A stretch of 64,000 nucleotides of DNA, from contig NZ_FNAP01000010.1 of the NCBI RefSeq assembly GCF_900101965.1, positions 106,174 through 170,173 of the forward strand. Reading direction: 5' to 3'. The notes beneath the pieces were generated by a model, which did no database searches, had not been told where the DNA came from, and was given only the letters and a program-made list of their open reading frames with translations. The DNA is from Rhodospira trueperi. GTDB taxonomy: Bacteria > Pseudomonadota > Alphaproteobacteria > Rhodospirillales > Rhodospirillaceae. Below are positions 7,168 through 18,965 of the stretch, piece by piece (the first letter of the stretch is position 1; every line of letters begins with the position of its first letter). A program made the translations under genes and the position numbers.

Positions 7168-8037
7168 ATGACGAACGCGCCGGATCGCGGGCCGTTGCCC
7201 GACCTTCTGGTGGACCCGTTGGTGCGGGCCGCGCTGGCGGAAGACCTGGGACGGGGCGGCGACATCACCACCGACAGCCTCGTGCCGGCCGACCGCACGG
7301 TTCAGGCGGCGGTGGTCGCGCGGCGGGAGGGCGTGGTGGCCGGCGCCGGCGTGGCCGCCCTGACCTTCCGGCTGCTTGATGCCCGCGTGACCTGCCGGGG
7401 CCGGATCGACGACGGCACCGTGGTCTGCCCCGGCGAAACCATCCTGTTGATCGACGGACCGGCCCGGGCCGTGCTGTCGGCCGAACGGGTGGCGCTGAAC
7501 TTCCTCGGCCACCTCTCGGGCATCGCCACCGAGACCGCCCGCATGGTGGCGGCGGTGCGCGGCACCCGGGCGCGCATCGCCTGCACGCGCAAGACGACGC
7601 CGGGCCTGCGCGCGCTGGAGAAGTACGCGGTGCGGGTCGCGGGCGGCATCAACCACCGCCTCGGCCTCGACGATGCGGTGCTCATCAAGGACAACCACAT
7701 CGCCGTGATGGGCGGGATCACGGCCGCCATCACGGCGGCGCGCGCCGCGATCGGCCACATGACGCGGCTTCAGGTCGAGATCGATTCCCTCGACCAGCTC
7801 GACGAGGCGCTGGCGGCGGCCCCCGACGCCATCCTGTTCGACAACATGACGCCGGAGGTGCTGGCGGAAGGGGTGCGCCGGGTGGCGGGGCGCGCGATCA
7901 CAGAGGCGTCCGGCAGCATCACGCTCGACAGCGTGGCGGCGGTCGCGGCCAGCGGCGTCGATGTCATCTCCGTCGGCTGGCTGACCCACAGCGCGCCCAA
8001 CCTCGATCTCGGGCTGGACATGCTGCCCCTGGCCTGA
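7168..8037 (+). CDS. nadC: Nicotinate-nucleotide diphosphorylase (carboxylating), quinolinate phosphoribosyltransferase
   Basis: NadC converts quinolinate and PRPP to nicotinate mononucleotide, CO2 and pyrophosphate, the step after NadA. The 289-residue protein has the N-terminal 'ALAEDLGRGGDITTDSLVP' and the active-site stretch near residue 138 with 'CTRKTTPGLRALEKYAV' and 'GGINHRLGLDDAVLIKDNH', whose Arg, His and Lys residues bind quinolinate and PRPP. The C-terminal 'VDVISVGWLTHSAPNLDLGLD' is standard. ATG 7168 has GGGGAGAG upstream. ATG 7141, nine bases after the nadA stop and with its own GAGGG, is a real alternative adding nine residues. It forms an operon with nadA. Confidence 0.95.
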   Translation: MTNAPDRGPLPDLLVDPLVRAALAEDLGRGGDITTDSLVPADRTVQAAVVARREGVVAGAGVAALTFRLLDARVTCRGRIDDGTVVCPGETILLIDGPARAVLSAERVALNFLGHLSGIATETARMVAAVRGTRARIACTRKTTPGLRALEKYAVRVAGGINHRLGLDDAVLIKDNHIAVMGGITAAITAARAAIGHMTRLQVEIDSLDQLDEALAAAPDAILFDNMTPEVLAEGVRRVAGRAITEASGSITLDSVAAVAASGVDVISVGWLTHSAPNLDLGLDMLPLA

Positions 8038-15830: not shown

Positions 15831-16466
15831 ATGACCATGGAACGCCTATTCGCCAACAACAAAGCCTGGGTCAGCCGCAAAACGGCGAATGATCCGGATT
15901 TTTTTCAACGTCTGGTTAATCTTCAGAAGCCGGAATATCTGTGGATCGGTTGCTCCGACAGTCGGGTACCAGCCAACGACATCGTTGATCTTGCACCGGG
16001 CGAGTTGTTCGTTCACCGCAACGTCGCCAACCTTGTCGTTCCGTCCGATCTCAACATGCTGACGGTCCTTCAGTATGCCGTTGACGTCCTCAAGGTCAGG
16101 CATGTCATGGTGGTCGGCCACTACGGATGCGGCGGCGTCAAGGCAGCCCTGTCGCGGGCCGAAATGGGCCTGATCGATAACTGGCTGCAACCCATCAAGC
16201 AGATCATGGCCACGCATCGGTCCCTCCTGGACGGTCTGGACGACTCGACGCGGCTCGACCGTCTGTGCGAACTGAACGTCGTGGCCCAGGCCCGGAACGT
16301 CGCGGCGACATCCATCGTCCAGACCGCCTGGACGCGGGGACAGAACGTCCAGGTGCACGGGCTGATCTACGCCCTAAACGACGGCCGGCTGAAGGATCTC
16401 GGCTGCACGCTGTCGGCTCCGGATCACCTGGAGCCGGCCTTCCGGCTCATCCATGACGGCGGCTGA
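15831..16466 (+). CDS. can: Beta-class carbonic anhydrase
   Basis: Zinc enzyme that interconverts CO2 and bicarbonate in the cytosol, supplying bicarbonate for carboxylases. The 211 residues have the zinc ligands Cys41 ('GCSDSRVPAND', including the Asp43-Arg45 dyad), His97 and Cys100 ('VVGHYGCGGVKAAL'). 'FVHRNVANLV' is also typical. The size and motifs resemble E. coli Can. It starts 10 bp after the DUF3422 stop and is the last gene of the pyrF-trpF-DUF3422 run. A second ATG two codons downstream is possible. The mobile-like element at 16481 begins 14 bp after its stop codon. Confidence 0.95.
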   Translation: MTMERLFANNKAWVSRKTANDPDFFQRLVNLQKPEYLWIGCSDSRVPANDIVDLAPGELFVHRNVANLVVPSDLNMLTVLQYAVDVLKVRHVMVVGHYGCGGVKAALSRAEMGLIDNWLQPIKQIMATHRSLLDGLDDSTRLDRLCELNVVAQARNVAATSIVQTAWTRGQNVQVHGLIYALNDGRLKDLGCTLSAPDHLEPAFRLIHDGG

Positions 16467-16570
16467 CCCGGCGCGCCCGATCCAGGGCAATCGGGTGAAA
16501 GGACGTGTGGTCGCAAAGACGCGGGGGATCGTGTGCCTTACGGCAGAACGGCCCACCATCTTTTATGAAC

Positions 16571-16657
16571 GCAGGGCGGATTCGACCCGCGAAGCGCGGC
16601 AATCCGCCGCGTGGCGGTGATGCGATGGGTTGCGCCTTCGGCGCGAACCCACCCTAC
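16571..16657. repeat. Double-hairpin repeat, copy 1 (degenerate)
   Basis: First of three tandem units with a 120-bp period. It begins GCAGGGCGGATT where the other copies have GTAG, and ends AACCCACCCTAC. Inside are two hairpins: GGCGGATT...AATCCGCC, then GGTTGCGCC-TTC-GGCGC with flanking partners. A 33-bp linker joins it to copy 2. Confidence 0.85.
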
Positions 16658-16690
16658 GACGTTTCGCGAACGCCAAGGCATCCAAGCCCC

Positions 16691-16777
16691 GTAGGGCGGA
16701 TTCGACGCGCGAAGCGGGGCAATCCGCCGCGTGGCGGTGATGCGGTGGGTTGCGCCTTCGGCGCGAACCCACCCTAC
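16691..16777. repeat. Double-hairpin repeat, copy 2
   Basis: The 87-bp unit opens with GTAGGGCGGATT and closes with AACCCACCCTAC, so GTAG stands at both ends in opposite orientation. Hairpin 1 uses GGCGGATT/AATCCGCC; hairpin 2 uses GGTGGGTT/AACCCACC with an inner GCGCC-TTC-GGCGC. A pair of REP-like hairpins with GTAG heads matches the general form of a REPIN. Confidence 0.85.
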
Positions 16778-16810
16778 GACGTTTCGCGAACGCCGAGGCA
16801 TCCAAGCCCC

Positions 16811-16897
16811 GTAGGGCGGATTCGACGCGCGAAGCGGGGCAATCCGCCGCGTGGCGGTGATGCGGTGGGGTTCGCCTTCGGCGCGACCCCACCCTAC
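16811..16897. repeat. Double-hairpin repeat, copy 3 with compensatory changes
   Basis: It is nearly identical to copy 2 across 87 bp. In hairpin 2, T16750 of copy 2 is G16870 here, and its partner A16767 is C16887, so the stem GGTGGGGT/ACCCCACC still pairs fully. One unpaired base nearby also differs (G16752 versus T16872). Confidence 0.85.
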
Positions 16898-17081
16898 GAC
16901 GTTTCGCATTTCGTCAACAATGCAGTCACCCGATTGCCCTGGAGCCCGATCAGGCAGCTCTTGGTTTCAGCGCGCGGCCTGCCTATGATCGGTGGTCTTG
17001 CCCGGTTCGACGGCACGACCTGAACCGGCGTCACGGCAAAGGACGACGCCCGCCTTGGTGCTGCTTCCCATCGATGTTCAT

Positions 17082-18965
17082 ATGTGGCTGACGCTGGCGC
17101 TGACCGTCGTTGTCATGACGCTGTTCGTGACCGAATGGGTCTCGCTTGAACTGACCGCGCTGGGAAGCCTGGCCACCCTTTTGGCCCTGTTCCACGTTCT
17201 CCCGGCTGTCGGCGCCGATGGCACGCAGTTGGTCACCTCGGCGGACCTCCTGGCCGGCTTTTCCAATCCAGCGCTGCTGACGGTCCTGGCACTGCTGGTG
17301 GTCGGCGAGGGCCTGATCCGAACCGGCGCGCTGGACAGCGTGGCGCATTGGACGGCACACCCGCGCCTGTCGCCCTCGGCCTCCGTGATCCTCACCCTGC
17401 TGGCCGTGCTCGCGTTGTCGGCGTTCCTCAACAACACGCCGGTGGTGGTGATCTTCATTCCCATTCTCCAGGCCATGGCGGTGCGGCTGAACGTCAATGC
17501 CAGCCGGGTGATGATGCCGCTCAGTTACGCGGCGATCCTGGGCGGCATGACGACGCTGATCGGCTCGTCCACCAACCTGCTGGTGTCCAGCGCCCTAATC
17601 GACCAGGGCCTGTCTCCCCTCGGCTTTTTCGAGATCACCGCGCCGGCGCTGGTGGTGGCTTGTCTGGGCATGCTCTACATCGTGCTTGTGATGCCCCGTC
17701 TGCTGCCCGAGCGGGCCAGCATGGCCAGCCATATGACCCACCACGGCAAGCAGTTCATTTCGCAGATCGTGGTCCCCTCCGATTCGCACCTTGTCGGCGA
17801 AAAGGCGGTGGCGGGCGCCTTCAAGTCGCTGCCCAACATCACCGTTCGGGTGATTCAGCGCGGGGAGCACGCCGAACTGCCGCCCTTCGACAGCTACGCG
17901 CTTCAGGCCGGCGACACCCTGGTGATCGCGGCGACACGGTCGGCGCTGACGGAGCTCGCGACCCGCTATCCGGGACTGCTGCACCCGCCGCGCCGCCCCG
18001 GCGAAGGAGACCGCACCCGCGACCGCCTGCGCGACAACGCAGAGGAAACACCGCAGCCGGCCCGGCGGGATAAGTCAGAAAACGGCGACAACGGCCGTGC
18101 TGCCCCGAGCGAACAGGTCATGGTGGAGGCCATGATCACGCCCTCGTCGCGCCTGATCGGCCCCAACCTCCAGCAACTGGCCTTCCGGCAACGCTACCGG
18201 TGCCTCGTGATCGGCATCCAGCGGCGCGCCCGGATGATCCGCGCCAGCATGACGCAGATCCGCCTGGAGGCCGGTGACAACCTGCTCATCACCGGTCGGC
18301 AGTCCGACATTGCCGCGCTCGGTCAGGACCGCGACCTCGTCGTGCTATCCGGCACCACCGGAACCCTGCCCCAGCGGCACCATGCCGTGCTGGCCAGCAC
18401 CATCTTCATCGTCGCCGTCGGACTGGCGGCCCTGGGAGTGGTCCCAATTGTCGTCTCGGCCATCGTGGCGGCGACGCTGATGGTGGCCATTGGGGCCGTG
18501 AACCTGCGGCAGGCGACGCGCGCCCTGGATCGCAAGATCCTGCTGGTCGTCGTCGCCGCCCTGGCGCTGGGACAGGCGCTGGAGGCCACCGGCGCCGCCT
18601 CGTTCGTCGCCCACTCGGCCCTCGGCCTGTTCAAGGACCTCGGTCCGGCCGTGATCCTGTCGATGTTCTTCCTCCTCGTGGCCGGCTTCACCAACGTGCT
18701 GACCAACAACGCCTGCGCGGTGCTGTTCATTCCGGTGGGAATCAACCTCGCCGAACAACTGGGGATGGATCCCCACATCTTCGCCATCACCACGGTCCTG
18801 GCGGCCAACTGCAGTTTTGCGTCTCCGGTCGGGTATCAGACCAACCTGCTGATCATGGGGCCGGGGCATTATGCCTTCACCGACTACGTCCGGGCCGGCC
18901 TGCCGCTACTGCTGCTGGTCTGGCTGGCCTACAGCCTATTCGCGCCGTGGTATTGGGGGCTTTAG
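17082..18965 (+). CDS. SLC13/DASS-family permease with two TrkA-C (RCK_C) domains
   Basis: Inner-membrane carrier of the divalent-anion:sodium symporter superfamily, whose members move dicarboxylates, sulfate or citrate. The 627-residue protein has an N-terminal membrane half with the conserved 'ALSAFLNNTPVVVIFIP' (NNTP) and 'TLIGSSTNLLV', two central RCK_C domains (about 225-310 and 345-430), and a C-terminal membrane half with the second 'TNVLTNNACAVLFIP'. An Arg/Glu-rich linker separates the RCK_C domains. ATG 17082 lacks a clear ribosome-binding site. TTG 17055 or GTG 17058, downstream of AAGGA at 17039, would add eight or nine residues. The substrate is undetermined. Confidence 0.88.
   Translation: MWLTLALTVVVMTLFVTEWVSLELTALGSLATLLALFHVLPAVGADGTQLVTSADLLAGFSNPALLTVLALLVVGEGLIRTGALDSVAHWTAHPRLSPSASVILTLLAVLALSAFLNNTPVVVIFIPILQAMAVRLNVNASRVMMPLSYAAILGGMTTLIGSSTNLLVSSALIDQGLSPLGFFEITAPALVVACLGMLYIVLVMPRLLPERASMASHMTHHGKQFISQIVVPSDSHLVGEKAVAGAFKSLPNITVRVIQRGEHAELPPFDSYALQAGDTLVIAATRSALTELATRYPGLLHPPRRPGEGDRTRDRLRDNAEETPQPARRDKSENGDNGRAAPSEQVMVEAMITPSSRLIGPNLQQLAFRQRYRCLVIGIQRRARMIRASMTQIRLEAGDNLLITGRQSDIAALGQDRDLVVLSGTTGTLPQRHHAVLASTIFIVAVGLAALGVVPIVVSAIVAATLMVAIGAVNLRQATRALDRKILLVVVAALALGQALEATGAASFVAHSALGLFKDLGPAVILSMFFLLVAGFTNVLTNNACAVLFIPVGINLAEQLGMDPHIFAITTVLAANCSFASPVGYQTNLLIMGPGHYAFTDYVRAGLPLLLLVWLAYSLFAPWYWGL

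Follow-up and report, generated by a model that had tools for sequence, protein, structure and literature searches.

A probable ISAs1-type miniature element with a variable REP-dimer cargo in Rhodospira trueperi

Small mobile elements and palindromic repeats that resemble parts of the present locus have been described in several bacteria. MITEPye1 of Paracoccus yeei is a small, transposase-free element that is bounded by terminal inverted repeats (TIRs) and flanked by direct repeats. In the available text of its description, it is thought to be moved in trans and is attributed to IS1182 (PMC11578231). Methylobacterium extorquens has a non-autonomous mini-transposon (MITE) called MiniMdi3, which measures about 400 bp according to the accessible part of PMC2680597. 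GTAG-tagged REPs form inverted, head-head dimers with hairpins, and the corresponding REPINs, which were defined in the available sections of PMC3116915, occur in tandem clusters together with flanking DNA (PMC3733652, PMC3116915). REP dimers of A. variabilis and H. neapolitanus lie regularly inside flanking inverted repeats, as stated in a section on palindrome-inserted dimers (PMC3733652). That section names no enzyme for the flanks, and ISAs1 is absent from the main text. CGTC REPs were reported to lack a dedicated transposase in the available part of a 2013 survey.

The window analysed here, a stretch of 64,000 nucleotides from Rhodospira trueperi, contains an element that combines these features. 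It very probably represents a non-autonomous mini-transposon of the ISAs1 type, a shell that carries REP dimers as cargo. Like MITEPye1, it is small, bounded by TIRs, flanked by direct repeats and free of a transposase, but it is ascribed to ISAs1 and its REP-dimer cargo varies in copy number. The cargo shares the GTAG tag, inverted dimers, hairpins and tandem arrangement with flanking DNA with the described GTAG REPs and REPINs; in contrast to these, it sits in a shell that has TIRs and a flanking target duplication. The dimers of A. variabilis and H. neapolitanus have a similar arrangement, and here ISAs1 is proposed as the source of the flanks. Such a shell was not described in the accessible portions of PMC2680597, PMC3281130, PMC5756416, PMC3925955 and PMC3606827. 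Within the open-licence literature that was available in part, no description of an ISAs1 shell with REP cargo was found, and the end sequence itself was likewise unmatched. The element belongs to a known kind, the ISAs1-type MITE, in a variant with variable REP cargo. The recurrence of the shell with different palindromic cargo is its most noteworthy aspect.

The initial annotation had recognised a miniature element with perfect 18-bp inverted ends and a 6-bp target duplication, and its borders were revised. The perfect inverted pair is present at 16481-16498 and 16926-16943, but the actual terminus is the 16-mer CAGGGCAATCGGGTGA, because the first two bases of the 18-mer differ among copies. 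The additional TC/GA is part of the target duplication and its inverted match is coincidental. The direct repeat is real as well, but its length is 10 bp and GCCCGA sits inside it; a length of 6 bp was rejected, with a flank identity of only 0.299 across 29 copies. With a 10-bp duplication that includes the two former TIR bases, the element comprises 459 bp (Table 1). It was correctly placed just past the carbonic anhydrase stop codon, at a distance of 16 bp instead of 14 bp after the border correction.

Table 1. Features of the element and its surroundings (positions refer to the window).
Feature	Coordinates	Strand	Remarks
Probable ISAs1-type MITE, 459 bp	16483..16941	.	Ends, 10-bp duplication, copy family; first 27 bp 89% versus IS end of L252
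Left terminal inverted repeat, 16 bp	16483..16498	+	CAGGGCAATCGGGTGA
Right terminal inverted repeat, 16 bp	16926..16941	-	Perfect complement of left
Left copy of 10-bp target duplication	16473..16482	.	GCGCCCGATC
Right copy of 10-bp target duplication	16942..16951	.	GAGCCCGATC, 9/10 identical to left
Cargo unit 1, inverted (head-head) GTAG-type REP dimer	16571..16657	.	Left tag GCAG; fold 16570-16659, z -1.78
Cargo unit 2, GTAG...CTAC REP dimer	16691..16777	.	Most stable of the three; fold 16692-16778, -54.9 kcal/mol, z -5.51
Cargo unit 3, GTAG...CTAC REP dimer	16811..16897	.	Fold 16812-16898, z -2.23
33-bp spacer between cargo units	16658..16690, again 16778-16810	.	
Upstream neighbour, carbonic anhydrase (Pro_CA)	15831..16466	+	Stop codon 16464-16466; start codon inferred
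Downstream neighbour, CitMHS/TrkA_C transporter (SLC13-like)	16992..18965	+	Listed ORF; actual start probably more internal

The ends recurred throughout the genome, a draft assembly of 4.21 Mb in 50 contigs with the window on contig C26. When up to three mismatches were allowed, the 18-mer occurred at 38 sites on the plus and 35 sites on the minus strand, and a reversed-pattern control gave none; the inverted pair is not due to chance. Some of the unpaired matches with three mismatches are probably chance hits. The genome-wide search that had been proposed for the termini yielded at least 29 TIR-bounded copies, including the one in the window. They were taken from the own-genome loci L001-L088 minus three transposase loci, where 35 TIR pairings were detected; six of these, in which one end had four mismatches, were judged spurious and removed before counting. 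The 29 elements kept were 173-459 bp long, and ten of them measured 218-220 bp. A common interior, the GTAG REP dimer, was present in 27 of 29 copies, while L016 and L071 had only the ends in common with the window copy. The length of the window copy corresponds to 219 + 2 x 120 bp, the common 219-bp form plus two more 120-bp units. One copy, L018 (G000:C49, 298435-298712), held a 14-bp unit, CAATGAAGACGTGG, four times in tandem in its left part; the other visible aligned copies showed none or about one.

Mean flank identity across the 29 copies was 0.821 at a length of 10 bp and 0.236-0.310 at lengths of 4-9 and 11-14 bp. Over 10 bp, nine copies matched at 10/10, nine at 9, five at 8, one at 7, three at 5, one at 3 and one at 2 positions. 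A duplication of at least 8/10 was therefore seen in 23 of 29 copies, and the six copies below this value were counted against the MITE explanation. Members of the ISAs1 family produce target duplications of 8-10 bp, a range that the 10-bp duplication in the window fits.

Candidate autonomous partners were searched for in named genomes with CAGGGCAATCGGGTGAAA. The scan returned 89 stretches, of which 80 loci were listed; records of the window genome itself may be missing. From the 80 listed loci, 11 pairs of insertion sequence (IS) length and 26 miniature pairs were obtained. L277 holds both kinds and its further overlapping pairings were set aside. The initial annotation had suggested looking for an intact IS with the same ends, and uninterrupted ISs with matching ends were present in Tistrella and Sphingopyxis. 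Tistrella mobilis held four IS copies of 1241 bp with perfect 10-bp duplications. In Sphingopyxis bauzanensis, the IS was 1254 bp long and two of three paired copies had a perfect 10-bp duplication. Overall, the flanks matched at 10/10 in 6 of 11 IS-length pairs, and at only 2-4/10 in the remaining five, which were counted against. With the ISAs1 model NF033564 (cut-off 70), one Tistrella transposase scored 401.7 bits and one Sphingopyxis transposase 402.8 bits. ISAs1 was likewise the annotation on both Tistrella plasmid records. Compared with the 16-mers of the MITE, one end of the Tistrella and Sphingopyxis ISs was identical and the other had one mismatch. The 1241-bp IS of Tistrella mobilis KA081020-065 (L248, L254, L280 and L290) thus resembles the MITE in its near-identical 16-bp ends and its 10-bp duplication. 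It differs by an uninterrupted ISAs1 transposase of 387 aa, and blastn matches between the two were confined to the ends, with a length of 32 bp or less. The ISAs1-type assignment of the MITE is based on the existence of these uninterrupted ISs with matching ends and 10-bp duplications. In a metagenome-assembled genome (MAG) of the same family, G016, an IS with both ends perfect was found; its transposase matched in pieces, apparently owing to a broken frame. Fragments with 85-95% identity occurred in G022.

A cognate transposase was not found in the R. trueperi assembly, although a MITE does not strictly need an autonomous partner in its own genome. NF033564 gave ten sub-threshold pieces, none of them on C26 and none with more than 37% identity to the Tistrella protein; a search with that protein itself gave a piece of 36% identity as its best match. 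In agreement with the earlier statement that no transposase lies within or near the element, no ISAs1 transposase gene was detected there: the interior consists of repeats, crossed by listed ORFs, and nothing beyond the ends was shared with six ISs. The mobilising enzyme is deduced from relatives. Seven of the ten pieces stemmed from the same point at contig ends and belonged to another ISAs1-type element with the ends CACGGCAACGAGTCCAGGTTAA. Seven contigs (L064-L070 on C8, C9, C11, C14, C23, C28 and C41 of G000) stopped at this one point inside the second IS, so that a multi-copy element breaks the assembly. The multi-copy state of this IS and the motif CA(G/C)GGCAA, common to its ends and those of the MITE, would make it a conceivable source of the mobilising enzyme. 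This explanation is unlikely, since the remainder of its end differs. Furthermore, ISAs1 relatives with 36-49% identity had other probable ends, such as CAGGG(C/G)(T/A)ATCGCATTTG in G001 and CAGGGGAATCGCTTCAGG in G022, whereas the ends of the MITE occurred around a transposase clade 66-100% identical to the Tistrella protein.

The interior of the window copy had been described as three nested double-hairpin repeats, and this held: 120-nt direct repeats start at 16570, 16690 and 16810, the third sharing 82% identity with the first. By the terminology of PMC3733652, each unit is a head-head dimer of GTAG-tagged REPs, with the layout GTAGGGCGGATT...AATCCGCC...GGCGGGTT...AACCCGCCCTAC. In the whole-dimer fold, the tag partly pairs with the opposite tag. 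Out of 200 shuffles, 9, 0 and 5 folded as well as dimers 1, 2 and 3, respectively. The last 22 bp of the spacer (16669-16690) had no other occurrence within the own-genome loci L001-L088.

The occupancy of the site was informative in one relative. In G002, a genome of the same genus, the carbonic anhydrase gene (can) is directly adjoined by the transporter gene (protein 82.7% identical) with no element between them; the initial annotation had proposed to look for empty sites in this intergenic region. Elsewhere in G002, 29 plus-strand and 26 minus-strand end matches were present. The intergenic DNA of G002 was only moderately alignable and the single-copy target is therefore unreadable there. 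Five genomes of the genus were examined. In G001, G003 and G004, the can loci of roughly 3.6 kb yielded no transporter, and can had no match in G005, so the evidence on the empty site comes from G002. Short tandem repeats adjoined can directly after the gene in G003 (L123) and directly before it in G001 (L121). On a wider scale, the 16-mer with at most one mismatch was detected in 22 of 60 related genomes, several of which had just one or two matches. Neither termini confined to this site nor relatives with a fixed occupancy were encountered, the two outcomes that the initial annotation had named as contrary to its reading. Together with the family-wide duplication and the ISs elsewhere with matching ends, the recurring ends support its proposal of a MITE-like structure that contains nested repeats and lacks its own transposase.

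The window copy might have been kept at this site as its hairpins form the 3' end of the carbonic anhydrase transcript or an attenuator between the two genes. The genes are co-oriented, all three dimers fold (Table 1) and the element begins shortly behind the stop codon. We consider this role improbable, judging from the sequence of the region: a strict consensus scan of 16400-17100 returned no intrinsic terminator and no promoter, and the sister genome G002 manages without the element. The hexamers TTGGTT and TATGAT just outside the element are partly conserved with G002. They fail the strict scan, and no promoter is claimed for this reason. Four Rfam matches in 16300-17150 were all below the gathering scores and were taken as chance.

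The shell was also found with other contents in other genomes. Its end pattern reads CAGGG(C/G)AATCGGGTGA. The 26 foreign miniature elements, three of which originate from Roseospira navarrensis, showed a duplication of at least 8/10 at a length of 10 bp in 21 cases, and in at most one case at lengths of 8, 9, 11 or 12 bp. For the elements from outside Roseospira, only the ends aligned with the window copy in blastn. The interiors had z < -2 in 22 of 26 elements; the exceptions were L250 (-1.73), L268 (0.23), L262 (0.55) and L298 (1.21). In other alphaproteobacteria, the shells enclosed palindromic repeats unrelated to the GTAG cargo. Cargo types varied by genome, where the type labels are patterns written after viewing the sequences and 10 of 26 elements are unlabelled. 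L235 from an alphaproteobacterial MAG and L295 from an Azospirillum MAG contained head-head CGTC dimers. In Methylobacterium oryzihabitans (L238, L260 and L287), the end was doubled on the right side, with another complete or partial copy immediately inside the outer one. L268 of Roseospira navarrensis (7305-7395) measures 91 bp; its 10-bp duplication is perfect, as is one of its ends, and the other end has three mismatches. It was rejected as a cargo-free ancestor: it has kept a CCTAC remnant of the cargo and a deletion is more likely.

The association of CGTC dimers with the shell was followed in two genomes, G060 (the Azospirillum MAG) and G061, which were picked because a CGTC-cargo shell had already been seen in each, and the following fractions are thus no survey. 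G060 comprised 167 CGTC matches, with none in the control, and 260 end matches with up to two mismatches. Among the 100 CGTC matches listed of these 167, 54 had an end with one mismatch or none no farther than 150 bp away. Conversely, a listed CGTC match lay at most 150 bp from 36 of 51 exact ends, and the other 15 had none at this distance. At 40 sampled CGTC loci of G060, allowing up to four mismatches per end, a TIR pair surrounded 18, one end was present at 11 and neither at 11. These loci followed the order of the 100 listed matches; those at contig starts were passed over, and the sample was complete before the list was exhausted. A duplication of at least 8/10 accompanied 14 of the 18 TIR-paired loci, one of which was unscorable at a contig end. 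G061 had 48 CGTC matches, and its 30 loci, every listed one save one at a contig start, were surrounded by a TIR pair in 8 cases, by one end in one case and by neither in 21 cases. Duplications of at least 8/10 were found for 5 of the 8 TIR-paired loci. The reversed-pattern control for the CGTC loci gave no TIR pair in 70. One CGTC-bearing shell of G061, L445 (G061:C130:6164-6764), had 10-bp flanks that are exact reverse complements, GCCATCCATG and CATGGATGGC, and not direct repeats. Perhaps this arrangement reflects an inversion between copies.

These observations raise a broader reading, in which a DDE transposase of the ISAs1 family acts as a general vehicle for REP dimers in alphaproteobacteria and shells with the same ends have repeatedly captured and spread unrelated palindromic repeats. 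We regard it as plausible and put it forward tentatively, at slightly less than even chances. The captures would comprise GTAG dimers in the host genus, CGTC dimers in the Azospirillum MAG and the alphaproteobacterial MAG, and other palindromes in Methylocystis, Beijerinckiaceae and Methylobacterium.

The core of the window element is a GTAG head-head dimer, and the structure could primarily be a REP-dimer cluster spread by a RAYT tyrosine transposase, with an incidental inverted repeat around it. The strict GTAG pattern GTAGGGYGGRTT had 78 matches genome-wide (control, 3). With an end list composed of the 18-mer matches minus the unpaired 3-mismatch ones, plus two rounded positions for one further copy, 48 of the 78 were at most 260 bp from a listed end and 30 were farther away. 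No end with fewer than four mismatches was present in the 21 loci read around these 30 matches. REPs of this class thus occur with and without a surrounding shell. At L327 (G000:C14:244100-245300), three tandem 163-bp units each contained a GTAG REP dimer, and no pair of ISAs1-type ends enclosed the array. A single RAYT is encoded in the genome (PF01797, one match; NF047646, 191.5 bits). Its gene (L192:1408-1938) is flanked on both sides by GTAG-tagged head-head dimers (1216-1335 and 1946-2050) in a REPtron-like arrangement. The dimers without a shell could have been moved by this RAYT or could be remnants. For the window element, an origin through RAYT is very unlikely. The stem of the RAYT-side dimers, GTAGGTTGGGGT, differs from that of the cargo, and the same ends enclose other interiors in two of the 29 own copies and in most of the 26 foreign miniatures. 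For the shell, the duplication statistics argue against this origin as well. To our knowledge, neither a 10-bp duplication nor such ends are to be expected from RAYT-type single-strand transposition. Descent by decay from full ISAs1 ISs, with no separate MITE family, is likewise very unlikely: many copies match about 27 bp of an IS end at 85-92%, but the shared size class (ten of 29) and interior (27 of 29) of the R. trueperi copies speak against it, each of the 267 blastn matches of these 29 copies to six ISs touches an element end, with a maximum length of 32 bp, and no copy of intermediate size with transposase remnants between its ends was among the 29.

For the ISAs1-type MITE, the following course of events is proposed. 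An ISAs1-family DDE transposase would act in trans, bind the 16-bp ends and join the element to a target cut with a 10-bp stagger. The enzyme may have been supplied by an IS that has since been lost from the lineage or is missing from the draft assembly. One founder element presumably gained a GTAG REP dimer, and its descendants would have spread the dimer along with the shell. In the window copy, the 120-bp cargo unit was probably amplified from one to three by unequal recombination or replication slippage. At its present site, the element would add hairpins to any transcript running past the carbonic anhydrase gene.

The pattern of shell and cargo hints at how palindromic repeats may spread around bacterial genomes. 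In two genomes, CGTC dimers lay within ISAs1-type shells, and many of these had exact 10-bp duplications. The pattern points to a candidate enzyme with a 16-bp recognition end and predicts the length of the duplication, which makes this route of REP spread testable. If ISAs1-type transposases are general carriers of REP dimers, a part of the CGTC REPs, which were reported to be without a transposase, would gain one, and some REP families that are counted as independent elements would be passengers of DDE transposons.
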